Origin: Acidobacteriota bacterium
GTDB taxonomy: Bacteria; Acidobacteriota; Holophagae; Holophagales; Holophagaceae
Reading direction: 5' to 3'
Assembly (NCBI GenBank): GCA_021794095.1
Contig: JAJYRN010000002.1
Location: 109,076 to 173,075, forward strand
DNA: 64,000 bases
Within the stretch, counting starts at the first letter, position 1. Each line of letters begins with the position of its first letter. The notes beneath the pieces were generated by a model. The model was not told the DNA's origin. It saw nothing but the letters and a program-made list of their open reading frames with translations, and searched no databases. Shown here piece by piece: positions 36,088-62,487 of this stretch. The translations under genes and the position numbers were made by a program.

Positions 36088-36178
36088 GGAGAGTTGTCCG
36101 AGTGGCCGAAGGAGCACGATTGGAAATCGTGTAACGTCCAAAAGGCGTTCGAGGGTTCGAATCCCTCACTCTCCGCCA
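36088..36178 (+). tRNA. tRNA-Ser (anticodon GGA)
   Basis: The 7-bp acceptor stem GGAGAGT (36,088-36,094) pairs with ACTCTCC (36,168-36,174), followed by G73 and an encoded CCA. The anticodon arm is cacga-ttGGAaa-tcgtg, so it reads UCC and UCU. The long variable arm (near gtccaaaaggc) is typical of a class II tRNA, and the T arm is gaggg-ttcgaat-ccctc. tRNA genes are common phage integration sites; prophage genes begin within 175 bp of its 3' end. Confidence 0.97.
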
Positions 36179-36180
36179 CC

Positions 36181-37336: not shown

Positions 37337-37616
37337 CGGGGCCCCCGTCCGTGTCTGCCTGGGGAGTTGGCACAACCCGAGGTCCACCGGGGGCGGTCGG
37401 GCCCACGAGCCCGACGGTCTTGCCCAGCACCTTCCCGGTGGTGACGGCGGCCAACAGGAGGCCGAAGGCGGCCACCCAGTTGGCGTCGAGGCCGGTGGGG
37501 CGGTACAGGGCGATGGTGAGCCAGGTGCAGCCCGCCACGATGACGAGCGCATAGGCCGCGTGTTTCAGGCTGGCTGTTGGGTCGGTCTTGTCGAGGAGGC
37601 GGAGAAGGTAGCTCAT
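37329..37616 (-). CDS. holin-like protein
   Basis: A 95-residue protein with two hydrophobic segments (about residues 18-37, AAYALVIVAGCTWLTIAL, and 46-66, VAAFGLLLAAVTTGKVLG) and a hydrophilic tail. It sits directly after the M15 endolysin (ATGA overlap at 37,613-37,616), as class II holins do. It is too short and generic for a firm family name. Confidence 0.6.
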   Translation of the reverse strand: MSYLLRLLDKTDPTASLKHAAYALVIVAGCTWLTIALYRPTGLDANWVAAFGLLLAAVTTGKVLGKTVGLVGPTAPGGPRVVPTPQADTDGGPDA

Positions 37617-38065
37617 CGCACCTCCAGGTAGTGCCACGCGCCCGGCCCACCCGAGGCGGTCAAGGCCATCCGGCGTGGCTGCTCGCCCTCCACGGCCACC
37701 GCCAGGTGCAGCCAAGCACCGCATTCGATGATGATCTGGTCGTAGGGGAGATCGGAGAGGCGCAGCTTGTCGAAGGCCGCATGCAAGTCGAGGCCCTGCG
37801 GGATGATGTCCGCTGCGCGGCCGGTCATGTGGGCGCTGTTCTTGGCGCCTCCCACAGCCTCGTTCAGGGCCACGCAGCGGTAGCCGGAATCCACATGGAA
37901 CGGCTCGCCCAGCAGCGCGCGCGCCGGCTCAAGCAGCGTCTCGCAGAGTCGGGTGAGGTTCGCCACGATGCCAGCGGTGGGGCTGTTGTCGATCCCTTGC
38001 CGCAGAGCAGTCTGAGATCGCGTCATTTCCTCGAGGCAGAAGTGCTCGGAGAGGGGAGTAGACAT
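37613..38065 (-). CDS. M15 family peptidase endolysin
   Basis: A 150-residue zinc peptidase that should cleave the peptide stems of host peptidoglycan. It has the M15A pattern: STPLSEHFCLEEMTRS at the N-terminus, DSGYRC, zinc ligands in SAHMTGRAADI (His and Asp), and the third ligand in WLHLAV. No signal peptide is present, so a holin is needed, and one follows directly. ATG 38065 has gaggt upstream. Confidence 0.88.
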   Translation of the reverse strand: MSTPLSEHFCLEEMTRSQTALRQGIDNSPTAGIVANLTRLCETLLEPARALLGEPFHVDSGYRCVALNEAVGGAKNSAHMTGRAADIIPQGLDLHAAFDKLRLSDLPYDQIIIECGAWLHLAVAVEGEQPRRMALTASGGPGAWHYLEVR

Positions 38066-38144
38066 AGGGCACCTCACCGCCGAGGATCAGGCGGAGATAG
38101 CCCTCACGGGATGCCAACTGGCGCAGGGTGGGGCACCTAGGGCG

Positions 38145-40310
38145 TCAGTGGTATCCAGGAGTTGCGCTCATGGGAGCCCCGTCTGGTTGACGGCCGCCAC
38201 GAGATGAAGGGGCAGCACCACCACCGTGCCACAAGTAATACTCGGCATCCTTCTTCTTGAATTGTTCAAGGAGTTGGGCTTCGATAGCCCGATTCAACCC
38301 CGCCAGGGATCGCGTCGTGCCGAGAACCTCTTTCGTCATCAGTTCCAGCGCCATGGCGGATTCATAGGCCGAAGCTTTTGATTTTTGATCTGGGGGAATA
38401 TCCGGATTGGACACAAAGGACCAATCTGCGCCATGGGCGCCTCCATGTGTCAACGCATAAGATCCGAAAGCGAACTTCAGGGAGGGTCCGTTCTGACCAA
38501 AAAAGGCATCCTGGGCAAAAGAGTTCATGCCTGGGTATCGCTTCATGAAGTCTGCCGACATCCGAAGTTTGACTGGGCCCTCCTTGGTGAGAGCCATCGC
38601 CAACCAGGCACCACCTTTGGCGCGAGCTGCCGCCTGCATTTCAGGGGATGCATGAGCAGCCTGAAACGCCTCCTGTAGGTATTTTTCGCCTTCCGCATTT
38701 AGTTGCCCATTGGGCCCCATCAGTGAGAGTGCGGCCATGGAGGTAAACACCGGATTCTGGTTGTTCATGAGGCTTTGCATGAAGGAAGCGCCCTGCGCGC
38801 CTTTCAACATCTCGCTGCCGGATGCGTTCAAAGTGCGACCCACGTTCTCGACATACCGCATGCCGGCCTGGGTGATGAACCCCACACGGGCCATCTCCGC
38901 CTGCCGCATGGAGGCAAGTGCCCCCAGGTACTCGTTCGAGCTGATCCCCTGGCGGTTGCCCTCAGCAATCAGGCCCGCAATACGGTCCAGTCGCCGGTTC
39001 ACGTCGAAGGAACTACGGCCCGTCTCGCCAGAACGGATGGACTGCCCGACGAATCCCGCCAGGGCACTATCCGAAACCCCCATATCCTGCGATCGCCGGA
39101 AGATCGAATCAGCAGTCCCCGCCAATTCCACATTCCCTTCGGCCCATCCCCCCGCGCCGATGTTCATGGCGGGGAGGAGTCGCCTGATGGCATCCATATT
39201 CCAATTGCTCCGCCAGTGAGCAGAACCCTCGCTGAGATGAGTCCCGTTCTTCGAGTAGGACATCCCGCGGAGGCTGAAACCCGCACCCAAGCCCTGGGAC
39301 ATTCGATAGTCGTCCAAGAATTTGGTGGCATCTGGGACCACATCATTTATTCCGATCCCGCTCAGCCACGATCCGGCCTTGAACCCACCGTAAAGAGCAG
39401 CCAAGCCCATTCCGCCGATGGCAGCAGCACCACCAACACCGCCTCCCAGGGCGGCCATGGCGCCTCCTTCCCCGAGGATGCTGTCGGCTGCGAAGGCCCC
39501 ATTGAGGCGACGGAGGGCGGCCATCCCGAAAATCTCCTGGACGGCCCCGAGCATGTCACCGTGGGCCATGCGCCGGAAGGCCCCCACACTGCCCCGAAGG
39601 CCGCCCACGCCGCCAGCACCGCCGCTCCCACCTGCGCGCCCCTCTCCCACCTGCGCCCGAAGATCGTCCAGTTCCCGGTTGAGCTTCCCGCCGTGTTCTC
39701 CGCCGATGGCGTCCGCGGCCTCCTTCCCTGATTTCGCCAGGGACTGGATGGCCTCGTGGAGCTTCACCATCTGCTCGGTGGCTCGCATGGCTGCGGGCGT
39801 GCCGGAGCCGGCCTGCTCGTACTCCGTCATGAGTTCCGCCATCTTCTTGCCGGCGCGCTCGAGGCCAGAGAACGACTCCTCCACCTTCCGGCCCTGCGGG
39901 CTCCCGGCGATGGCAGCCCACATGCTCGCCTCGCCTCGGTCCTGCTCCCCGAGGGTGCCACCCCACCGCTGGTAGAAGGTGCCAGCGTTCCGCAGGGCGT
40001 GGATGCCACCCTCCTGCATGATGGCCGCCCATCGCCTGGAGCCCATCGGGCCGAGATCCCGCTCGGGATAGTCCTCGGGGCGGTCCCAGTTCCCGGAGTA
40101 GCCGCCGGAGGGCCGCTGGCTGAAGGACCGGTTCAGCGCCTCGGCCCGTCCAATGCCAGCCTCCGCCCGGTCCATCCTGACGTCCTTGACGTCCAGGGTG
40201 ATGGTGCCGAGGTTCGCCCCGCCGGCCATCTCCCGACCCAACCCGTCCCGGAGGGCCTGCTGGAGTTTCCCAAAGAACCCCTCGGCGTTGATGTTCTTCT
40301 CGATCCCCAT
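38145..40310 (-). CDS. tail tape measure protein
   Basis: A 721-residue protein with long Ala/Gly/Met-rich helices and a central hydrophobic Gly-rich region (about residues 230-315, SGGAGGVGGLRG ... GGGVGGAAAIGGMGLAALYGG), which is typical of tape measures. It is the longest leftward gene between the tail chaperones and the lysis cassette, just where a tape measure belongs. The protein would set a tail of roughly 100 nm by the general rule of about 0.15 nm per residue. No lytic domain is seen in it. Confidence 0.85.
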   Translation of the reverse strand: MGIEKNINAEGFFGKLQQALRDGLGREMAGGANLGTITLDVKDVRMDRAEAGIGRAEALNRSFSQRPSGGYSGNWDRPEDYPERDLGPMGSRRWAAIMQEGGIHALRNAGTFYQRWGGTLGEQDRGEASMWAAIAGSPQGRKVEESFSGLERAGKKMAELMTEYEQAGSGTPAAMRATEQMVKLHEAIQSLAKSGKEAADAIGGEHGGKLNRELDDLRAQVGEGRAGGSGGAGGVGGLRGSVGAFRRMAHGDMLGAVQEIFGMAALRRLNGAFAADSILGEGGAMAALGGGVGGAAAIGGMGLAALYGGFKAGSWLSGIGINDVVPDATKFLDDYRMSQGLGAGFSLRGMSYSKNGTHLSEGSAHWRSNWNMDAIRRLLPAMNIGAGGWAEGNVELAGTADSIFRRSQDMGVSDSALAGFVGQSIRSGETGRSSFDVNRRLDRIAGLIAEGNRQGISSNEYLGALASMRQAEMARVGFITQAGMRYVENVGRTLNASGSEMLKGAQGASFMQSLMNNQNPVFTSMAALSLMGPNGQLNAEGEKYLQEAFQAAHASPEMQAAARAKGGAWLAMALTKEGPVKLRMSADFMKRYPGMNSFAQDAFFGQNGPSLKFAFGSYALTHGGAHGADWSFVSNPDIPPDQKSKASAYESAMALELMTKEVLGTTRSLAGLNRAIEAQLLEQFKKKDAEYYLWHGGGAAPSSRGGRQPDGAPMSATPGYH

Positions 40311-40313
40311 GGC

Positions 40314-40925
40314 CTACCTCGTCGTCAGGTCGATCTGCTTGAGCAGGAAGGGCTGCGGCAGGTCAGTGATCCAGGACCGCAGCTTCCCGATGTCAGCCAC
40401 CACCTGGAACCGACGGGGGGCCCGCATCCGAACCACCAGGTTCTGGCTCACCTTGACCCGACCATCCGATCCAGGCGCCGGGAGGGTGGCCGCCACTAAG
40501 GAGGCACCCTGCGGCCCAAGGGCGAACACCTGTCCCACCACCGCGCCAGAAGGCAACCGGACGGGCGTGTTGGGGGTCAGAACCCATTCAATGGGGTCAA
40601 GGGCATCCACCGCCAGGAAGCGATCCCCGGAGGACACCAGGCCGTAGGCCGGCGCATTCGCAGGGATGCTCACCGAGGCATCACCCACCAGCCCGGGGCC
40701 CAGCTTGGTCCGTAGGGCCTCCAATTGCTTGGCCGATACGCCAGTGAGGCCGGCCCGGAAGATGGCAGAAGGGGGATCGAAGGTGCCCCCTTCCCCGTTG
40801 CAGAGGGGGCAATCGTGCCGGGCGGCTCCTTCAGCCCCGGTGCATGGGCACCGATGCCACTTCTCCCACTGCATGCGCGAGCCGAGGGATCCCGAGAGGA
40901 CGTTCGTGAAGGGCGCGGCAAGCAT
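40314..40925 (-). CDS. phage tail protein with Cys-rich knuckle, unknown role
   Basis: A 203-residue protein. Residues about 24-48 hold CPCTGAEGAARHDCPLCNGE, a four-Cys/His cluster likely to bind zinc or iron. The rest is mostly beta-like (SSGDRFLAVDAL, TPNTPVRLPSGAVVGQVFALG). It starts at ATG 40925, which overlaps the stop of the upstream chaperone frame as TGATG, and ends 3 nt before the tape measure start. Position suggests a baseplate or tail-tip role; no family is recognised. Confidence 0.65.
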   Translation of the reverse strand: MLAAPFTNVLSGSLGSRMQWEKWHRCPCTGAEGAARHDCPLCNGEGGTFDPPSAIFRAGLTGVSAKQLEALRTKLGPGLVGDASVSIPANAPAYGLVSSGDRFLAVDALDPIEWVLTPNTPVRLPSGAVVGQVFALGPQGASLVAATLPAPGSDGRVKVSQNLVVRMRAPRRFQVVADIGKLRSWITDLPQPFLLKQIDLTTR

Positions 40926-41195
40926 CAGGGCCTCCGGGTGAAGTGGGCATCGCACCACGCGATCAGGGCCAGGGCGTCGGCATCCGTCCGGTCCTGCTCC
41001 CGGGAGGCCCGGTCCACGCGGGGTGTGTTCCCTGCCGCCTCAGATCCTTGAATCGCCGCCCAGTGAAGCTGGTAGGGAGCCAGCCGGAGGACGTCTGGGT
41101 GCCAAGGATGGAGCCCAAGGGCCCGCGAACCAGTCCACACCAGATTGGTGAGGGCCCGCGGCTGTCGCCAGTTAGCTTCCAGCGCCGCCGCTTCG
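40925..41195 (-). CDS. tail assembly chaperone, T-like extension probably made by +1 frameshift
   Basis: About 89 residues (EAAALEANWRQPRALTNLV ... CDAHFTRRP) in the frame +1 to the chaperone gene upstream, overlapping its last eight codons. It has no ATG of its own; the only alternative start is GTG at 41140 without a Shine-Dalgarno. Its stop overlaps the next gene as TGATG. In tailed phages this position, directly before the tape measure region, holds the G/GT pair, where T is made by frameshifting. The likely slip is TTT to TTC at 41,198-41,195 (codon GAC-TTT-CGA). Confidence 0.6.
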
Positions 41196-41588
41196 AAAGT
41201 CCGCCCTCCAACGGGAGTAGGCCCGGTAGAGGTCCAGGATGGCCTCCACATCCGGCAGACGCCCCAGATCGAGGGTCGGGAGATTCCCCCCCTTCTCGGG
41301 GGCTTTCCACCAGGAAGCCGGAGCCTTGGTGATGAGGATCTGCAGGGAAGCGATGGCCTCGGCCACGAACCCCGCAAGAGGGCCCATGGCACGCTCGATG
41401 GCCAGGGTATCGGCCACCGTGGCATAGCGGATCGTGACCGGGCCATCCAGGGAAGGAAAGCCGACGGACTTGAAGTCGGTCGTGAACTCCGGGATGGAGA
41501 ACACAACCTCCTCCTGCGCGGAAAGGGCGGGTTCCAGCGCCGAATCAATGCCGGCTGCCGCGCGAAGGACGGGATCTGTGAGGCCCAT
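41172..41588 (-). CDS. tail assembly chaperone, G-like
   Basis: A 138-residue protein encoded between tail tube and tape measure genes, the usual place of the G chaperone. It is acidic and helical: FTTDFKSVGFPSLDGPVTIRY, then DTLAIERAMG. It would bind the tape measure during tail assembly. The last codons overlap the +1 frame that encodes the T-like part. The name rests on position and on the overlap, not on sequence identity. Confidence 0.65.
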   Translation of the reverse strand: MGLTDPVLRAAAGIDSALEPALSAQEEVVFSIPEFTTDFKSVGFPSLDGPVTIRYATVADTLAIERAMGPLAGFVAEAIASLQILITKAPASWWKAPEKGGNLPTLDLGRLPDVEAILDLYRAYSRWRADFRSGGAGS

Positions 41589-41598
41589 GAGCTACCCC

Positions 41599-42015
41599 CT
41601 ACCGAGTCCGCAGCGCGCGGAACGAGAAACGCTGGGTGACCAGCTGCCCAGCCTGGATGCCGGATCCGTGGGAAGCCAGGGTGCAGGCTTCCAAGACCAT
41701 CACCGGCTGCTTGGTGATGTCGTCCAGCACCACCATGTCGAAGGTTCCGGTGCGGATCACCTCCGCAGCCGTGCGCGCGCCGAGCTTGCTGTCCTGGATG
41801 AGCATGTCCCGCACGTAGTACCGCTGGATGTCGCCGGACACCATGTAGCGCGTCTGCTGGTGCTCCTGCACCTCCACGGACCCGACCACGAGGACGTCCT
41901 GCACCCCCATGTCCACCGACCAAGACACCCCCTGGAACCAGCCAGCGTCCACACCGTCGATCATGATCCGGGCGACGTGGCCGCCCAGCACCTTGGCATC
42001 ATAGATGTTGGCCAC
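41599..42015 (-). CDS. tail tube protein
   Basis: A 138-residue protein that follows the sheath gene, as tube genes do. Beta-rich, with VARIMIDGVDAGWFQGVSWSVD and VEVQEHQQTRYMVSGDIQ; the length is normal for tubes of contractile tails. The start is GTG at 42015, with taggagg upstream. It would polymerise into the inner tail tube. Confidence 0.78.
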   Translation of the reverse strand: MANIYDAKVLGGHVARIMIDGVDAGWFQGVSWSVDMGVQDVLVVGSVEVQEHQQTRYMVSGDIQRYYVRDMLIQDSKLGARTAAEVIRTGTFDMVVLDDITKQPVMVLEACTLASHGSGIQAGQLVTQRFSFRALRTR

Positions 42016-42044: not shown

Positions 42045-43790
42045 TCAGAGAGAGATCTGGGCTGGCGAGAGCTTCACCGCCACGGTGATGTAGTCCGTCT
42101 CCCCGACGGGACTGGCGGTGACGCTGATATTCCAGGTCTCCATCCCATCGGTGGTGACAGTGAGGTTCGTCCAGGCAGGAGTTTCCTGCCCGTTCGTGAA
42201 GCCGGGGGTCAAGAAGCCGCCCGGGTTCTGAGCCGAGCGCACGGAATTGTCCAGGAACTTGGAAGCCGCCAGCTTGATCAGCTGGCCAGAGGACAGGTCC
42301 AGCGGATAGCCGATGAAGGACGACAGAACCTGGTTGAACCCGGCGGAAATGGCATCCTGAATCCGGAGCCCAAGCAGCTTCCGGTAGGCGACGTTGGCGC
42401 CACCCTGCCAAGTGGTGATGGCCTGCTCCACGCGGGACTGGCCAGTGACGGGATCGATCGTGATGGGCGTCACGCCGGCGATGAGCAGGTTGGAGATGTC
42501 GGTCGTCAGAGGAGTGGGATTCTCGAGGCCCAGGCTGAGGAGCGGCTTGCCCGTCGCAGGGGTCGAGACATAGGAGCCAGCTGAGATGCCGAGCACCTGG
42601 GCCGCAGAGCCGTGGCCGCCGAGCTGCTCCTGCAGGCCCGTGAGAGGGTTGTAACCCACCGTGCCATTCCAGACGTAGACGACCGGGCCCGGGAAGGTCG
42701 GCGCTGCAGCAGCAGCCTGCGCGACAGTCTGGCCCGGAGCCCCACCCAGGAAGAGGATGCGGTTGCGCTTTGCCGTGACCGTCCGCATGGCGAGGACATG
42801 CTGGTAGGCGAGGGCCTGCGCCGACGGGTCGGTGGTGGCCAAGAAGAGGAACTGGACGTCGGTGGCGGCCATGACGGTCAGGCCATTGGTCCAGTCGGTG
42901 GAGGTCACCACATCCGCATTGGTGCCTACGGCACCCGACAGATAGGTCTCGGCCGTGGCCGTGAGAGGACCGAACGTGCCAGCCACCGACAGCGCAGCGC
43001 TGACGAGGTAGTTGGCGTTGGTCAGCTGCCAGATGAGCGCGCCCTGGGACGCTGGGACGGGGGTGGGGGTCGCCAGGATGGCGGGAGCACTGGCCAGCAC
43101 GGGGTTGTCCATGTAGCGGACAGGCATGGAGGGATCCCCAGCGACCGTGGCCGTCCAGCCGGGCACCGTCTGGATCCATGCCGCGAGGTTCGCCAGGGTG
43201 ACACTGTCGGTGGGGTAGGCAAGGGTCGCCACCACCGCGCCGCTGGCGTAGAGGCTCGCCACCTGACCCACATGGTCGAACACCACCTTGGGCGTGGTAG
43301 CCGTGGAACTCACCATGAGGCCGGCGCCCACCGAGAAGGTGCGCTGCAGGCCGTCCGACCGCTTGAAGATCGTCACATCCCAAGGCAGGGAAGCACCCAC
43401 AGCCACCTGGATCGAGATCCCGTCCGTGTGGCGGCCGTAGTCGAGGCTGGTGAACACCAGGCCGGAAATCGTCGCAGTCGCCTGCGTGGGGGCGCCGATG
43501 CGCACGAAACGGATCAGGCCAGCACCCGGCACCGTGGGATCACCCGACGGGTTGAAGATCCGGCTGAGGTAGGAGAGCACGGGACCACCGCGGAGCGCAG
43601 CAGCCGCCTCCGAGAAGGATCGGAACTCCAATACCTGGTGGGGCACACCCCCATCGGATGTGCCGAGCACGCCGACCACACCCATGGACCCATAGGTGTC
43701 GGGGACCATGGCAGACGCATCGATTGTGGTGAATACGCCGGGACGCACGACATTCACGCCACCGACGTTGATTCCAATGGGACCAGGCAT
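42045..43790 (-). CDS. tail sheath protein
   Basis: A 581-residue protein. The N-terminus PGPIGINVGGVNVVRPGVFTTID and the C-terminal domain with YRKLLGLRIQDAISAGFNQ and a terminal beta-strand for subunit linking fit contractile sheath proteins. A middle domain (about 95-330) is inserted, as in larger sheaths. A strong aaggaggt precedes ATG 43790. The sheath contracts to drive the tube through the cell envelope. Confidence 0.85.
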   Translation of the reverse strand: MPGPIGINVGGVNVVRPGVFTTIDASAMVPDTYGSMGVVGVLGTSDGGVPHQVLEFRSFSEAAAALRGGPVLSYLSRIFNPSGDPTVPGAGLIRFVRIGAPTQATATISGLVFTSLDYGRHTDGISIQVAVGASLPWDVTIFKRSDGLQRTFSVGAGLMVSSTATTPKVVFDHVGQVASLYASGAVVATLAYPTDSVTLANLAAWIQTVPGWTATVAGDPSMPVRYMDNPVLASAPAILATPTPVPASQGALIWQLTNANYLVSAALSVAGTFGPLTATAETYLSGAVGTNADVVTSTDWTNGLTVMAATDVQFLFLATTDPSAQALAYQHVLAMRTVTAKRNRILFLGGAPGQTVAQAAAAAPTFPGPVVYVWNGTVGYNPLTGLQEQLGGHGSAAQVLGISAGSYVSTPATGKPLLSLGLENPTPLTTDISNLLIAGVTPITIDPVTGQSRVEQAITTWQGGANVAYRKLLGLRIQDAISAGFNQVLSSFIGYPLDLSSGQLIKLAASKFLDNSVRSAQNPGGFLTPGFTNGQETPAWTNLTVTTDGMETWNISVTASPVGETDYITVAVKLSPAQISL

Positions 43791-51225: not shown

Positions 51226-53367
51226 ATGACCCAGACCCTGCACCCTCTCTACGGTGAATACCTGACCGATGCCGGGCGCGCCCACTCAATCCCGCTCCCG
51301 CCAGGCGTCTACGCCGGGATGAACCCGACAATCACAGGCGCTGGAGGATCCGCTGGCTGGACCCTGAGCCTGGCGCCAGACTCGGATGGCTTCTCCTACT
51401 GGCGCACCCCGGGATCCCCAGTCGAAGGGAGGTACGTCATCCAAGAGGATGCTCCGGTGCAGGTGCCCATTGCCGCGCCGGATGCCACGCACACGCGCAT
51501 CGACCTCGTCATAGGCGTCCACAAATGGGTCGCAGGCCCGGTGGATCCATCGACCCTAGAGCCAACAGGGCAGTACACCAGCGCCCAGCAGGCCACCTAC
51601 GTCGTTGCGCAGGGGACGCCATCGGCAACACCGGTGGCGCCCACGGTGCCGGACCCCTACGATGGAACCGGGAATCGGGCGGTCATTCTGGCCGAGATCA
51701 CTGTCCCTCCAACGGGAACACCCACCGTGGTCCCCTATCCAGCCACGGACCTCCGCTTGCTGGGAATGCGGACGGTGATCCAAGAAGTGATCACGGCCAG
51801 AAGCACCTTCCCGGATCTCAACTCCAGGCTCAACAGCCTGGGTGGCTCGATCACGGCCATCACGCAGAACCAGATCAACGCCACGAGCTTCACGGGGAGC
51901 ACGGCCGTCACCAGCAGCGCGACCACCTTCACGAAGGTGGCCATGTCCAAGACAACCGTATTCGGGACGGCCGTCTCCGACGTAGACGCAGCCACCAAGA
52001 CATCCATCAGCCTCCTTCAACCGGGGCTCTACGAGATCGAGGCATTTCACAAGGTGGAGGGATCGGCATTCGGAAGCGTCTGCTGTGCGGTCCAGGCTTG
52101 GCTCACGCGCACGGGAGCAGCCAACCAGCTTATTGACAATCAGCTCGACACCTTCTCGGACGAGATCACCGAGGCTGTCTACGGCATGCTCTACGTGGAT
52201 CCGAGCTGGGTGGCGCCCGCGATTTATTTCGAGCGCGCAGGCACCCCTGCCGGAACCCTGCGCGGATCCGTCAAGTACCTGGGCAACCCAACCAGTGTCG
52301 GCACCCTGCTCATCGCCAACAAGGTCTCCACCAACCTGCTGGCGTCCACGGGGATGACCTACCCCGTGTCGGTCCTGATTCCCCTCACCGCCAGCAATGC
52401 CGTCGGAAGCGTCACATGGAGCGTGGTCGCCGGGACAGGGCTGCAGAGCGGCACCACTGACCCAGCCGCAACCATCGTGAGTGGGAACCAACTGCAGTTG
52501 ACATGGTCCACCGCCCCCGCGGCCTTCCCAGCCACCTACTCCGTGGAGGTCAGCGCCACAGACAGCGCCACGAGCCCCCGGACTGCAACCGCCACGCTCG
52601 GGTTCACCCTTGCCGCCCCGGCGCCCCTCACCATCACGACGACTACCCCCATCCCTTTCAGCACGGCCCTCTACCCCTACAGTGTGAGCCTCCAGGCCAT
52701 CGCATCAGGGGGAGCCCCTCCCTACACCTGGTCCATCGTCACCGGCGCTGGCACCAACCTCCCGAGCGCAGCAGTGAGCGGCACAACCGTGACGGGAACC
52801 GTCTCCGCAGCCGGAACCTATACGGTCGAGCTTCTCTGTAGCGACTCCCAGACCCCGACTCCAGCGCAGGCCACGGCGACCATCACGATCAACGTCACAA
52901 CCGTGACAGGTGGAGGTGGGGGTGGAGGCACCGGATGTGTTCCTGCTGGGACTCCCCTCAGCATGGCCGATGGGAGCACTATCCCGGTCGAGCAGGCAGC
53001 CTTCGGGATGCATGCCATGGCCTTCGACGATCTCACGGGCGAGCCGGTCGAAGCCACCATCACTGCTACCTGGGAGCACCAAGGCCGCGATCTGTATCGG
53101 TTGATCACCGATCGTGGGGAATTGGTCTGCAGCCATGACCACCGCCTCTACAGCCGGGCGAAGGATGCCTGGATCCCAGCCAGGAATCTCCATGAGCACG
53201 ATGTCACCCTCACCCTCGATGGGCAGACCTTGGTCGAGGCCGTGGTGCTCTCCTGTGAGCCCACCGGGGAGCAGGCGACGGTCTATCACCTCACCCTGGA
53301 CCGCGGCCATGTCTACGTGGCAGGCGGATTCCCGGCTCACAACATGATCAAGGTGCTCCTGAATTAA
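51226..53367 (+). CDS. tail fibre protein with C-terminal Hint (intein-like) domain
   Basis: A 713-residue protein. The N-terminus (HPLYGEYLTDAGRAHSIPLP ... DATHTRIDLVIGVHKW) is typical of fibre shafts; two Ig-like domains follow (about 375-560), then a Gly7 linker. Residues 571-706 form a Hint domain: C571 (CVPAGTPLSMADGS), block B ELVCSHDHRLYS, and the end AHN at 704-706. Only MIKVLLN follows. Met after HN, with no Cys/Ser/Thr acceptor, is the pattern of A-type bacterial intein-like domains rather than splicing inteins. Stop overlaps the convergent gene in a shared TTAA. Confidence 0.8.
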   Translation: MTQTLHPLYGEYLTDAGRAHSIPLPPGVYAGMNPTITGAGGSAGWTLSLAPDSDGFSYWRTPGSPVEGRYVIQEDAPVQVPIAAPDATHTRIDLVIGVHKWVAGPVDPSTLEPTGQYTSAQQATYVVAQGTPSATPVAPTVPDPYDGTGNRAVILAEITVPPTGTPTVVPYPATDLRLLGMRTVIQEVITARSTFPDLNSRLNSLGGSITAITQNQINATSFTGSTAVTSSATTFTKVAMSKTTVFGTAVSDVDAATKTSISLLQPGLYEIEAFHKVEGSAFGSVCCAVQAWLTRTGAANQLIDNQLDTFSDEITEAVYGMLYVDPSWVAPAIYFERAGTPAGTLRGSVKYLGNPTSVGTLLIANKVSTNLLASTGMTYPVSVLIPLTASNAVGSVTWSVVAGTGLQSGTTDPAATIVSGNQLQLTWSTAPAAFPATYSVEVSATDSATSPRTATATLGFTLAAPAPLTITTTTPIPFSTALYPYSVSLQAIASGGAPPYTWSIVTGAGTNLPSAAVSGTTVTGTVSAAGTYTVELLCSDSQTPTPAQATATITINVTTVTGGGGGGGTGCVPAGTPLSMADGSTIPVEQAAFGMHAMAFDDLTGEPVEATITATWEHQGRDLYRLITDRGELVCSHDHRLYSRAKDAWIPARNLHEHDVTLTLDGQTLVEAVVLSCEPTGEQATVYHLTLDRGHVYVAGGFPAHNMIKVLLN

Positions 53368-54940: not shown

Positions 54941-56959
54941 TCAGTCCCCCGATCGGCCAATCTTGGCCTCGCCAGTGGCAGGAGCGCCAGCGGCCGGGAT
55001 CTCATAGTGGATCCACTGGACCCCGTCAGAGGAGCGCGTCTCGAACACGATGACGCGGTAGCCGAGGGACGCGGCGTTGTTGGTGAGAGTAGAGAACGCC
55101 TGGGTGAGCGCTCCCGAGCCCCCGGGCACCTGAAAATCGAAGGCCAAGCCCTTCGTGTGGGCACTCCCGGGCACGCCACCCCAGTAGGCATTGAGCTTCA
55201 CGCTGCGATAGGCGGAGGTGATGATGATGTTGCCAAGCAGGTTGCGCACCTTGAAAATGTGCCCAGCCAGAATCGCCAGGTTGGCCTTCACCGCATCGGT
55301 TGGCTGGTCCTGGTACTGAGGCGTGCTGGTGGCCAGAAGATTGTCGGGACCGGGCAATGGGTTCACCTCTGCCGGCTGGAAATGCGAGGACGACACCCAA
55401 TCGGCGCGCGCGGCCTTCACCTCCGTTGGAGTCATGTAGGTCACCATTTTGAGATCGACCAGTGCGCGCACGGCTGCAGGGTATTGGTCCGCGGTGACCC
55501 CATCCAACCCGCGCGTGATGCCCACAGAGGTCTGCGCCTGCAGACCCTTTGGGCTACCTGAAATCGAGTGGCTGACGGAGATCACATAGCCCGTCGAAGG
55601 CAGAGAGGCATTCTCCGAGTAGTCCTCCAGGACGGAACCGATGTGGATGCCGGGCATGAGGGGGAAGTCGTGCACCTGGTCCAAGAGGAAGGGAAGAGGG
55701 GCTTCCTGCCAGGCTACCCGGTCGAGGACGGATGGCAGAATGACGTCGAAATAGGATGGATCAGCCTTCAGGTAGGAGCCGATGCTGACCTGACGGGATG
55801 AGAACCCGTAACGCTTTATGAGGTTGTCGTCCATTCTGAAGCCCAACGCCACGCGCTCATAACTCATCCCCGTGGGGTTGGAGTCCTGCGCGCCCGACAG
55901 GCTGACGAAGAAGGTGTTCGCCCTGGATGCATCGGACCTGGAGGAGCCAACCCGCAGCGCTGCGCCCGGACCCGTGGGGACTCCCGTCATGACGACATCC
56001 AGTTGCCTCCATATCGAGTCATCGTCTACTGGCGCCCCAGTGACCTTGGCGGTCACGGCAGCCGCAGGAGGCCCGGGCCATGGGCGGGGGCGGAACACCA
56101 GAGTGGGAATCTCCCGGTACTCGCTGGCATTCGGATCGGGCTGATAGGTCAAGAAGAACTCGTGGACATCCGGTTCAGCAAGGCCCTGGAGGATGCCCCA
56201 GATGGGGCCCTGCTTCATCAGATACCAGTTCTCCGTGGCGAACACAAAGAGGCCCCAGGCGCTCTGCCAATCCCGGGGGTTCGGGGAGAACTGGAAGGTC
56301 GTTCCTGAAGCGGCCCGGGCACCACGTACGCCAAAATCAAGAAATTTATCCACGGCCCCAGAGATGAACATCCGCATTAGGTCGGAAACGGGAATCGCAC
56401 CCTGCTGCTTGGCCAGCTCATGGAAGAAAGAGAAACCGGCGGTCCCTGGGAAATTCTTCCCGGCCTCAGCCTGCACGAACCCCTGCCAATCCAACCACTG
56501 CTCCGAAAGCACCTTCTGGAGCCCGGCCGCAGTGATGTCCAGGCGCCATCGGTAGGAATCGGCAGAGGAGGCGCGAGTCCATTGGACCCCGGATAGGTTC
56601 CCATCAAAAGCACAGGTCCATCGGCCATCCGCGGAAAGGATTTCTATGCGCAACGGGTCATGGGGGAGCACTCGCGGACGCAGGACGCCCCCAATGGCGC
56701 CCAGGGTGATGCTGAGCGATGCCGAATGCCCCTGCATGGTTTCCTGGGTCCGGAGCGAGATGAGCCCCAGGCTGCCGGCCATGAATTTGGGAGGAGGCCC
56801 TTGGATGTAGGGGGAATCCCAGGGCAGACCGTCGAAGTAGATGCCGGATGTGGTGGGACTCGACGGATCGAGGATGACCGCATAGGCGCGCTCCGCGTCC
56901 ATCGGAGCCAGGCTCTCCAGGGAGGAGAGCACCAGCCGGAAGGTGGGACGGTAGATCAT
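54941..56959 (-). CDS. baseplate hub protein fused to an M15 peptidase
   Basis: A 672-residue protein. Residues 1 to about 480 are a hub-type protein (gpD/gp27-like: beta-rich, LRIEILSADGRWTCAFDGNL, GYVISVSHSISG). Residues about 545-660 are an M15 peptidase: TSAYRSVKLN, zinc ligands in SAHTKGLAFDF and WIHYEIP. It should locally digest peptidoglycan during injection. ATG 56959 is set by the ATGA overlap with gene J. A second, unlinked M15 enzyme is the endolysin at 37,613. Confidence 0.78.
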   Translation of the reverse strand: MIYRPTFRLVLSSLESLAPMDAERAYAVILDPSSPTTSGIYFDGLPWDSPYIQGPPPKFMAGSLGLISLRTQETMQGHSASLSITLGAIGGVLRPRVLPHDPLRIEILSADGRWTCAFDGNLSGVQWTRASSADSYRWRLDITAAGLQKVLSEQWLDWQGFVQAEAGKNFPGTAGFSFFHELAKQQGAIPVSDLMRMFISGAVDKFLDFGVRGARAASGTTFQFSPNPRDWQSAWGLFVFATENWYLMKQGPIWGILQGLAEPDVHEFFLTYQPDPNASEYREIPTLVFRPRPWPGPPAAAVTAKVTGAPVDDDSIWRQLDVVMTGVPTGPGAALRVGSSRSDASRANTFFVSLSGAQDSNPTGMSYERVALGFRMDDNLIKRYGFSSRQVSIGSYLKADPSYFDVILPSVLDRVAWQEAPLPFLLDQVHDFPLMPGIHIGSVLEDYSENASLPSTGYVISVSHSISGSPKGLQAQTSVGITRGLDGVTADQYPAAVRALVDLKMVTYMTPTEVKAARADWVSSSHFQPAEVNPLPGPDNLLATSTPQYQDQPTDAVKANLAILAGHIFKVRNLLGNIIITSAYRSVKLNAYWGGVPGSAHTKGLAFDFQVPGGSGALTQAFSTLTNNAASLGYRVIVFETRSSDGVQWIHYEIPAAGAPATGEAKIGRSGD

Positions 56960-58203
56960 GATGTGGCCAGGATCCACTCGGGATAGGTCACAGAAACACC
57001 CCCATCAATGGCACTCCCCACCTGCAATACGCACCGTTCATTCGCACCGGTGTATGGGTTCCCCGGCTTCACGGGGACGACATCCTGGGCAGAGAGAGGA
57101 TCGGTGTAGGCGGGTGCCGTCAGGTCGCCCCGCCAGATCGCCAGGGACACCTCAAGGATGTCTGGATCGGCGCCGGCCAGCGCCACCAGTAGGTTGGAGT
57201 AGGCGCAAACATCCCCCACCTGCAGCCCGGAAAAATAGGTCTGGGCCGCCGAAGTAAGAGAAGCCTGAATGGTTGACCAGCGAGCAGCCCCATAGGGGGT
57301 AACCCGGATCGTCCCCCGGACCTTGATCTGAACCGGGGCCACCGGAATGATCTGGACCTGAATGCCGGCCGCCTTCCATCCTGGGATCTGGGCTCCCGTC
57401 GGGGAAGTGTAGCCGAACACCTCGTTCGAAACGGCGGTCTGGACCGTGGGATCCAGCACCCCAGTCCCAGTGCCGTCGTCCACCACGAGCCACACGAGCC
57501 CAGCGTAGGGGGTGCCAGTGGGGGGGAGCGGGAGAAGGAAGGGCTCCACCGCACGAGCGCTCACGAGGCGCCCCGTCGAAAGGGCGGCGAACTCTAGGGC
57601 GCTCGCCGTGCCGCGCTGCAGAGTGGAAATGAAACTCTGGAACCGAGCCATCCGCGCGTCGGCGGATTCGATGTCCGCCCCGCCGGAGAAGGCGGCCGGG
57701 TTCTGGACAGAGTCCACACCGGCGATCTGGTAGGCCATCTGGGTGATGGCGCCCGCGGCGATATTCCCAGCCACGCCAGGCGTCACCGCAGAGGCCGCCA
57801 CGACGCCCGATGCGAGAGCCCCCGCAGCGATGGTGCCATCTGCCGTCGTCAAGAATTGCTGCCCGTCCGCCGCGATCACCTTGGTGCCCAGGGGCACGAC
57901 GATGGGGGCCGTTGGGGCGACCACGCACTGAAACACGACACCACCCGAGGACGACTGCGCCGGGAGCAGGCTGAACCCAAAGGCGGTGAACGCGCTCTCG
58001 GAGACAGCCCACTGGATGGCCATGCTGGTCCGGACGTCATATTCCTCCAACACCATGGCCGCCGCCTCGAGATGGCTGCGTTCCAGGGAGCCAGGATAGA
58101 GATCGGTCGAGAGCACACCATCTGCGGTATCGGGATTCGCCTGGATCCACGCGATCATGTCGGATACGGTCTGGTCCCACCGGCGTGGCGTATAGCCTGC
58201 CAT
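56956..58203 (-). CDS. baseplate J-like protein
   Basis: A 415-residue protein of the baseplate J/gp47 (wedge gp6-like) family. Landmarks: the N-terminal LYPGSLERSHLEAAAMVLEEYD, PLGTKVIAADGQQFLTT, the GVAGNIAAGAI turn, GGADIESADARMARFQSFI, and GLVWLVVDDGTG. It forms the hexameric ring that triggers sheath contraction. It follows gp25 directly, as in most contractile phages, with aggagg before ATG 58203. Confidence 0.92.
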   Translation of the reverse strand: MAGYTPRRWDQTVSDMIAWIQANPDTADGVLSTDLYPGSLERSHLEAAAMVLEEYDVRTSMAIQWAVSESAFTAFGFSLLPAQSSSGGVVFQCVVAPTAPIVVPLGTKVIAADGQQFLTTADGTIAAGALASGVVAASAVTPGVAGNIAAGAITQMAYQIAGVDSVQNPAAFSGGADIESADARMARFQSFISTLQRGTASALEFAALSTGRLVSARAVEPFLLPLPPTGTPYAGLVWLVVDDGTGTGVLDPTVQTAVSNEVFGYTSPTGAQIPGWKAAGIQVQIIPVAPVQIKVRGTIRVTPYGAARWSTIQASLTSAAQTYFSGLQVGDVCAYSNLLVALAGADPDILEVSLAIWRGDLTAPAYTDPLSAQDVVPVKPGNPYTGANERCVLQVGSAIDGGVSVTYPEWILATS

Positions 58204-61014: not shown

Positions 61015-62487
61015 CTAGAACGGCTTCCAGGTGGCGTTGGTGGGCAGGATGTTCTTGAACGCCCCCAGCTTCTTGGGGGTGGCGATCCGCAGAGCCGTGA
61101 TGTAGAACAGCACGAAGCGATACTGCAGAGCGGTCATGGCCAGAGGCAGCTTGCTCGGAGGAGCCATCTGCAGGAGGCGGAAGGCGCCGACGTTGGGGTT
61201 GCTCGTGAGCACCAGAGCATCGCTGGTGCCGGGAATCACGGTGTTGTAGTCCGTGAAGGTGGTGGAACTGCCCGTCCGAGCCACCCGACCGATGAAACGC
61301 ATGTCCGAAGGCTGGTTCGTTCCGTTCCGGCGTCCACGGTAGACCTTGTAGTAGGTCTCGGTTCCACCCGCCGATGGGGTGATGGTGAGCACCACCGAAT
61401 CACCAGCGGCGACGCTGGCGGCGGAGGCCGTCACGACAGGGTTGGAAACGACGCCCGAGGACCACGCCTCCACCGCGTAGTAGTAGGCGCCAGCATGGGC
61501 GGCCAGGAACGCGCTGTTGGGATCGATGGCGGGAGCGGCGAATGTCGGGGCGGAAGCCACGGTCTGGCCGGTGATGCTGGTGGGATCGGCATAGGTGGAG
61601 ACGGGAGCCGAAATGCGCTCGTCCAGGAACGGGTGGGGCTCCACCTCGAGGATGCCGTTGCCGACACCCAGGCCGTTGTAGCGGATCCCCTTGACGAGGG
61701 CGCCGAGCATGGTGCTGGGCACATTCTGGTCGAGGTTCACGCGGTAGGAGGATTCCAGGTGGGCGTCGAAATCGGTCTTGACCAGGGGGCTCACGACCAT
61801 GTAGTCGGGCGCACCCCAGTTCCCGAAACCAGCCAGCTGGGCGGCCAAGGGGCTGACCTGGGAGCCGCTGTTGAGAGCCGCACCGGCCATGTCCACGACA
61901 TTCTGGGGGGCCCGGCTCTTGATGGACGGAATGAGCCCAGTGAATTCCAGGGGGTCCACGCTGGAGTCACCGTGGAGGATGTTCCACTCCACGCTCTGGA
62001 GCACCCGACTGAGGGCGGAGAAGATCTCCTGCTCCGAGGAATTGAAGTCCACCACCCCGGCCGCCTGCTGGAGCGCGCCCTGCAGGGCCGTGGGGACCGT
62101 CACGCCACCGTACTCGGCGAAGAGTTTGAGTTCCGTGACTTCCCGGTGGTAGGCGCCGTTCCGGTCGGGCAGGTTGGTGGCGCTCTCGTTCGAGACGGAG
62201 CTGCCCGGGAACCCGCCGATGCCATCCTGCACCACCTGCTGGTCGATCAGGGACCAGGAAGTGTGGCGGTTGGGGAACAGCCGGTTGAACAACACGAAGT
62301 GCGGATTCTGGACCGTGGCGATGGCAAGCTCGCTCTCCACGGATTCCACGCGCATCGCGCCACCGCCGGTGAGGGCGGTAAGCTGCGTCCCAGCCTGGGT
62401 GCTGGAAAGGGCCTTGACGATATTGCGGATACGGGGATCCGCGCTTGACTCGGCCATCTGACCGAGGATGGAAACCACATCGAGCAT
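61015..62487 (-). CDS. major capsid protein with fibronectin/Ig-like insert
   Basis: A 490-residue protein. The N-terminal part (SIKSRAPQNVVDM, SQVSPLAAQLAGFGNWGAPDYM, VVSPLVKTDFDAHLE) resembles HK97-fold capsids of the SU10 type. Residues about 325-425 read as a fibronectin III or Ig-like domain (AGAYYYAVEAWSSGVVSNP, YYKVYRGRRNGT, TFTDYNTVIPGTSDA). The C-terminus returns to the capsid (RFVLFYITALRIATPKKL). It lies between scaffold and connector genes, with ggaggttcc before its ATG. Confidence 0.82.
   Translation of the reverse strand: MLDVVSILGQMAESSADPRIRNIVKALSSTQAGTQLTALTGGGAMRVESVESELAIATVQNPHFVLFNRLFPNRHTSWSLIDQQVVQDGIGGFPGSSVSNESATNLPDRNGAYHREVTELKLFAEYGGVTVPTALQGALQQAAGVVDFNSSEQEIFSALSRVLQSVEWNILHGDSSVDPLEFTGLIPSIKSRAPQNVVDMAGAALNSGSQVSPLAAQLAGFGNWGAPDYMVVSPLVKTDFDAHLESSYRVNLDQNVPSTMLGALVKGIRYNGLGVGNGILEVEPHPFLDERISAPVSTYADPTSITGQTVASAPTFAAPAIDPNSAFLAAHAGAYYYAVEAWSSGVVSNPVVTASAASVAAGDSVVLTITPSAGGTETYYKVYRGRRNGTNQPSDMRFIGRVARTGSSTTFTDYNTVIPGTSDALVLTSNPNVGAFRLLQMAPPSKLPLAMTALQYRFVLFYITALRIATPKKLGAFKNILPTNATWKPF
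61213..61515 (-). other. fibronectin/Ig-like domain inside the capsid gene
   Basis: Codes for capsid residues about 325-425. The strand pattern A-YYYAVEAW, then SVVLTITPS, TYYKVYRG, FIGRVA, TFTDYN is that of fibronectin III modules, often seen as surface decorations on phage capsids. The limits are estimated by eye. Confidence 0.6.

Follow-up and report, generated by a model that had tools for sequence, protein, structure and literature searches.

How the second of two overlapping frames in the tail region of a prophage comes to be translated is the question raised by this locus. The window, the whole stretch of 64,000 nucleotides of an Acidobacteriota genome that was analysed, carries on its minus strand a short gene, here called G, whose end is overlapped by a protein-like frame, T. 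A reading made from the sequence alone had proposed that the two form a tail chaperone pair joined by a +1 frameshift at TTT-C. A short chaperone with a frameshift-extended form is also found in lambda (gpG/gpGT, -1) and Mu (-2) (PMC5009743, PMC3498833), from which the present pair differs in both the direction of the shift and the slippery site, with T in +1 and the site TTT_CGN. On comparison with relatives, we consider it highly probable that the window holds a contractile-tail prophage whose G/T tail assembly chaperone pair gives a G-T fusion through a +1 slip at TTT_CGA.

Organisation of the tail module

At 36154-36179 the window holds the 3' end of a tRNA-Ser(GGA) gene, and this end is repeated 81,385 bases further on (G000:C24:226614-226639; 1 mismatch in 26). 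The two repeats are probably the attachment sites of a prophage, about 81 kb long, in which the tail module lies. The minus-strand operon, of the contractile-tail type, runs in the order sheath, tube, G, T, phrog_1004 gene and probable tape measure gene, with the following features:

42045..43790 (-), tail sheath (phrog_279, E 2e-42)
41599..42015 (-), tail tube protein, upstream of G (phrog_985, E 5e-16; Pfam Phage_tube_2 below cut-off)
41172..41588 (-), G, putative tail assembly chaperone, short form, 138 aa (ORF; PHROG matches of homologues; model)
41205..41209 (-), GGAGG resembling a Shine-Dalgarno sequence, 6 nt ahead of TTT; may assist the shift, absent from some clusters
41193..41198 (-), candidate shift site TTT_CGA (TTTCG invariant in 16 of 17 clusters)
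40925..41197 (-), T, +1 frame, 90 codons before the stop codon, lacking an evident start (ORF; homologues; start-codon scan)
40314..40925 (-), next gene after T, virion structural protein (phrog_1004)
38145..40310 (-), probable tape measure protein, 721 aa (position and composition)

The overlapping G and T ORFs therefore lie between a tube gene recognised by profile and a tape measure gene recognised by position only, the ORF at 38145-40310 having no family match in PHROG or Pfam, and a single phrog_1004 gene separates T from the latter. Other prophage genes on the minus strand encode an M15 peptidase, probably the endolysin (37613-38077), a baseplate wedge subunit (56959-58203, phrog_6) and the major head protein (61018-62487, phrog_752). 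The tail operon is interrupted by long plus-strand genes, among which lies that of a 713-aa protein (51226-53367) with a C-terminal HINT/intein-like domain (PT-HINT, E 9e-4, below the Pfam cut-off) and a C-terminal HN followed by seven residues.

G begins with the ATG at 41588 and ends with the TAA at 41174-41172, just where the sequence-only reading had placed its end. T lies in +1 (equivalently -2) relative to G, not in the -1 frame of a lambda-type pair, and ends with the TGA at 40927-40925, the A of which is shared with the ATG of the next gene at 40925 to give a TGATG junction. The codon TTT occupies 41198-41196 and CGA 41195-41193, with the shifted F codon, TTC, at 41197-41195. Up to and including F, G accounts for 131 residues, to which T adds 89 (the length that had been read for it, together with the TGATG junction), giving a predicted fusion of 220 residues. 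Upstream of TTT_CGA the +1 frame stays open for 267 codons in this GC-rich DNA, so that the open overlap alone says little.

Neither G nor T of the window matches a PHROG or Pfam profile. Four of ten G homologues match phrog_25000 (tail assembly chaperone; best 2.9e-6, for the Lalka protein) and three of ten match phrog_1038 (tail assembly chaperone; best 0.033). The latter family was found in 0 of 297 genomes and likewise in no control genome, so that this count is uninformative. A first structure model of G, built from 8 sequences, had a pLDDT of 49 and was discarded; an AlphaFold2 model from 15 sequences reached 83. The top PDB match of this model is the HK97 tail assembly chaperone 2ob9, a weak match (Foldseek E 0.44; VIA Z 5.1, rmsd 3.9 A over 90 residues) with scores that can be common arrangements, and 3fgx stands next to it (Z 4.9). 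Of the six BFVD matches at E <=0.001, one is named as a tail assembly chaperone, another as a tape measure protein and a third as Orf100, the rest having no name. A PDB sequence search with the G profile returned a single weak match, a MutL protein. Taken together, the homologue profiles, the model and the gene order, each of them weak alone, suggest that G is likely to be a chaperone.

Conservation of the junction in relatives

Homologues were sought by protein homology and never by motif. Whole-genome searches gave homologues in 2 of 60, 3 of 396 and 3 of 77 genomes (own genome included), and further loci came from GTDB contigs (four, one of them false), IMG/VR and phage records. Single-protein scans of IMG/VR with the G and the T of the window found no relative, and neither did a search of phages with the T of L026. 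In all, 23 loci were read, with haloviruses kept outside this count. L021 was dropped as a false homologue on inspection, and L018, L019 and L020 were dropped as having junctions identical to those of L003, L004 and L011. Also left out were L001, L002, L009, L010, L012-L016 and L028-L035, which are the same places in G000, G027 and G152 again, and L083-L094, L097 and L105, which lie on contigs already counted; Lalka27a matched in the phage records and stands outside the count. Merging at 93% identity over 210 nt gave 17 distinct clusters. The junctions in the MAG Acidobacteria bacterium WY5.bin29, of the host's genus, equal those of genome G027.

An in-frame TTT_CGN with T in +1 was present in 22 of the 23 loci (16 of 17 clusters), and in these 22 loci T runs for 83-101 residues after F. 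It had been asked of the earlier proposal whether TTTC and the frame offset are kept in relatives, and this comparison, which shows that they are, supports a tail chaperone pair with a putative +1 slip at TTT-C. The conservation extends over considerable divergence, the pairwise DNA identity across the 17 clusters having a median of 43% and a minimum of 30%. TTTCG is invariant in all 16 site-bearing clusters while the flanking bases vary, and between -60 and +71 the nearest other invariant column is at -21 (16 clusters, with the two homologue groups not strictly aligned beyond the gap-free stretch). All four bases occur at the third position of CGN, and the amino acid of T next to F accordingly varies among E, D, A, V and G; the target of selection thus seems to be TTTCG as such and not this amino acid.

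The presence of TTTCG in frame at the junction also goes beyond chance. Over the final 110 codons of the 16 G genes, only 7 of the 59 other Phe codons are TTT (Fisher p ~3e-11, a value overstated since the rows are related by descent), and TTT makes up 2-26% of Phe codons across nine sampled tail modules with the site. In the 22,973 codons of these nine modules, counted on greedily chosen ORFs, in-frame TTTCG occurs five times, and four of the five are the junction sites themselves.

The one exception is G152 (L011, identical to L020), in which CTA_CGC stands at the site position and G stops three codons after CTA. Here T is preceded by GGAGGA-ATCCTTG-ATG, a Shine-Dalgarno sequence with an ATG, and would start MLLWRGSKALGLHPW; the locus lies at about 1790-1860 of L011 (MAG NC_groundwater_765). 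The simplest reading of this single locus is that its lineage has swapped the putative shift for separate initiation, which suggests that a frameshift can give way to a separate start. Separate start codons for T in relatives had been named beforehand as evidence against a frameshift; one was seen only in this diverged relative, which has lost TTTC as well, and the other 22 loci keep the site.

G152 also raises the question of whether T might everywhere be translated on its own, from a start inside G or shortly behind its end and with no frameshift, and to this we give only a small chance. A GGAGG precedes an ATG in Lalka (eight codons downstream of the site) and in phiMa (18 codons upstream of it), a GGAG precedes a GTG in L025 (eight codons downstream), and gene callers make T a separate ORF in the Thermus records. 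However, no start-codon position is common to the ten bacterial-phage junctions that were scanned, and in L004, L026 and L027 the open T frame lacks any ATG, GTG or TTG from -25 to +30 codons. The window has two start codons in the scanned T frame, both without a Shine-Dalgarno sequence. Furthermore, separate initiation would give no reason for TTTCG to persist.

Site and direction of the shift

The relatives also restrict where a shift could take place. In L100-L102 no more than three codons before TTT are open in +1, and in L026 and L027 the G stop comes directly after CGT; if the frame changes at the same place in all, these short overlaps confine the shift to these few codons. The +1 candidates XXX_X, TTT_C, CCC_T, AAA_G, GGG_A, CTT_T and CCC_G were scanned for up to 40 codons back, and among these types TTT_C is the only homopolymer-type candidate common to all 16 clusters and the only candidate within the whole overlap of L026, L027 and L104. 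A GGG_G three codons earlier is also present in L099 and L100 and is absent from L102. In seven gap-free sequences the protein signal changes frame around the site: the 20 codons that precede it have a mean BLOSUM score of 2.5 in frame 0 and 0.9 in +1, and the 26 codons that follow score 2.1 in +1 and 0.6 in frame 0. A change point in nucleotide variability was also tried as a locator and proved too broad, its best fits falling 10-21 nt upstream and 15 nt downstream of TTT.

A shift elsewhere, or a Mu-like -2 shift, for example on the seven-G run of the window (41288-41276 region), has a slighter chance still. The frame offset by itself cannot separate +1 from -2, the window does carry AAGGGGGGGAAT upstream of the site, and one halovirus record labels a TTT-CGC site as -2. 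Against this, +1-frame stops in L025-L027, L100-L102 and L104 exclude a shift so far upstream, and the seven-G run is interrupted in L003, a relative 96% identical (AAGGGCGGGAAG). The run was rejected as a slippery site on this ground, L003 being the closest relative. At the TTT itself a -2 slip would need re-pairing of UUU on codons such as ACU, CCU and CGU, and the bases before TTT vary, unlike a Mu-type site at which re-pairing two bases back is conserved.

That the frames are joined by transcriptional slippage, or that T is not translated at all, is a close to negligible prospect for which we found nothing specific. The T run at the site is only 3-4 long, too short for polymerase slippage as usually described, and T protein similarity is kept in the +1 frame.

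With a +1 slip at TTT_CGA as the preferred reading, most ribosomes would read G and stop at 41172, while some would skip one base at TTTCG and so make a second version of this tail-building helper protein, the 220-residue G-T fusion. The tRNA-Phe would slip at TTT_C, the host having a single such tRNA with anticodon GAA. If the pair works like that of lambda, the tape measure protein would be the partner of G, and G-T would recruit the tube subunits. The sequences show the pair of frames, the invariant TTTCG, where the frame changes and, on weak matches, a predicted G fold resembling a chaperone; we infer that the slip occurs and that it is +1 rather than -2, and likewise its efficiency and these chaperone roles.

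Codon supply and possible stimulatory elements

The host genome gave 46 tRNA matches, all typed with ARAGORN, including one tRNA-Phe (GAA) and tRNA-Arg genes with the anticodons ACG (two), UCG, CCG, CCU and UCU. Of the Arg codons in the sampled tail module, 14% are CGA. The supposition that CGA is read slowly found no support, as the host has a cognate tRNA-Arg(UCG) gene and each of the four CGN codons is seen among the relatives. Judged by tRNA genes, as distinct from tRNA levels, the codon in the A-site is not short of its tRNA.

Within the 20 nt before TTT, 10 of the 16 clusters have a GGAG/GAGG-type element, at a distance of 2-6 nt, whereas in other parts of G the figure is 27% of windows. 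The element may help the shift; it is absent in six clusters and is partly imposed by conserved W-R residues. An RNA structure acting as stimulator found no support in the window (z -0.05), nor did a conserved one, the consensus fold of seven sequences having an unfavourable covariation term.

Comparison with known systems

The nearest named relatives are the Thermus phages phiMa, Cumys and Lalka, which have homologous G and T proteins 27-33% identical to those of the window, TTT_CGA or TTT_CGC at the site, and T in +1. Their records annotate T separately, with differing starts inside or after G (L005:6278-6619, L006:6425-6619, L007:4353-4607), and the words 'frameshift' and 'chaperone' do not occur in the main text of the paper that described Lalka and Cumys in 2024 (PMC11437467).

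That +1 shifts are rare among tail chaperones was rightly stated, with the qualification that the same type of site had already been proposed for haloviruses (PMC7230728). In the account given there for the HF1 group, TTT-CGC is put forward as a +1 site of the tail chaperones with no experimental proof (PMC7230728), and the source that gives -1 for the lambda tail chaperone calls the shift of HSTV-2 'very likely' +1 (PMC5009743). We found the TTT-CGC site in the haloviruses HSTV-2, Serpecor1 and HRTV-14. The HF1-group and HSTV-2 viruses resemble the present family in site and direction and differ in having archaeal hosts. Since the G of HSTV-2 has no detectable homology to the present G profile (hhalign probability 0.8%), the common site looks convergent, very old common descent being the alternative. 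On this comparison the putative chaperone of the window is the bacterial-phage counterpart of the halovirus case, with no detectable sequence similarity to it.

The same hexamer, with the same proposed slip of tRNA-Phe, occurs in influenza PA-X and in amalgaviruses, which are eukaryotic RNA viruses with genes unrelated to the present G and T (PMC3498833, PMC5052127). At the influenza site, UCC_UUU_CGU, the +1 shift was proven by mass spectrometry, in a report that names Mu as the only natural -2 case known at that time (PMC3498833), and the plant amalgaviruses are described as having UUU_CGN +1 sites with all four CGN codons (PMC5052127). UUU_Ynn is said to be especially prone to +1 in bacteria (PMC5009743). 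Our literature searches on TTT-CG or UUUCG frameshifting in phages, which were mostly at title level and took in few subscription papers, returned no bacterial-phage tail chaperone. As far as these searches show, a UUU_CGN +1 shift in such a protein has not been described before.

Comparison thus gives strong support to a +1 frameshift in a tail chaperone of bacterial phages, and the type of site proposed for haloviruses would not be peculiar to archaea. We regard it as quite possible, though leaning slightly against it, that the bare UUU_CG pentanucleotide, with no rare codon, no RNA structure and no Shine-Dalgarno helper common to all, is enough to make bacterial ribosomes shift by +1, and that the tail chaperones of bacterial and archaeal contractile viruses have converged on the signal of influenza virus and the amalgaviruses. 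UUU_CGN would then be a frameshift signal common to viruses from each of the three domains, and its driving forces would be slippage of tRNA-Phe and some property of CGN in the A-site other than tRNA scarcity. Since the site occurs with every CGN codon and the cognate tRNA gene is present in the host, the family offers a clean test of why UUU_CGN slips. Among the haloviruses, the GenBank note of HRTV-14 (L096, MZ334492) gives the shift as -2, and for this group of viruses the case made in PMC7230728 is for +1.
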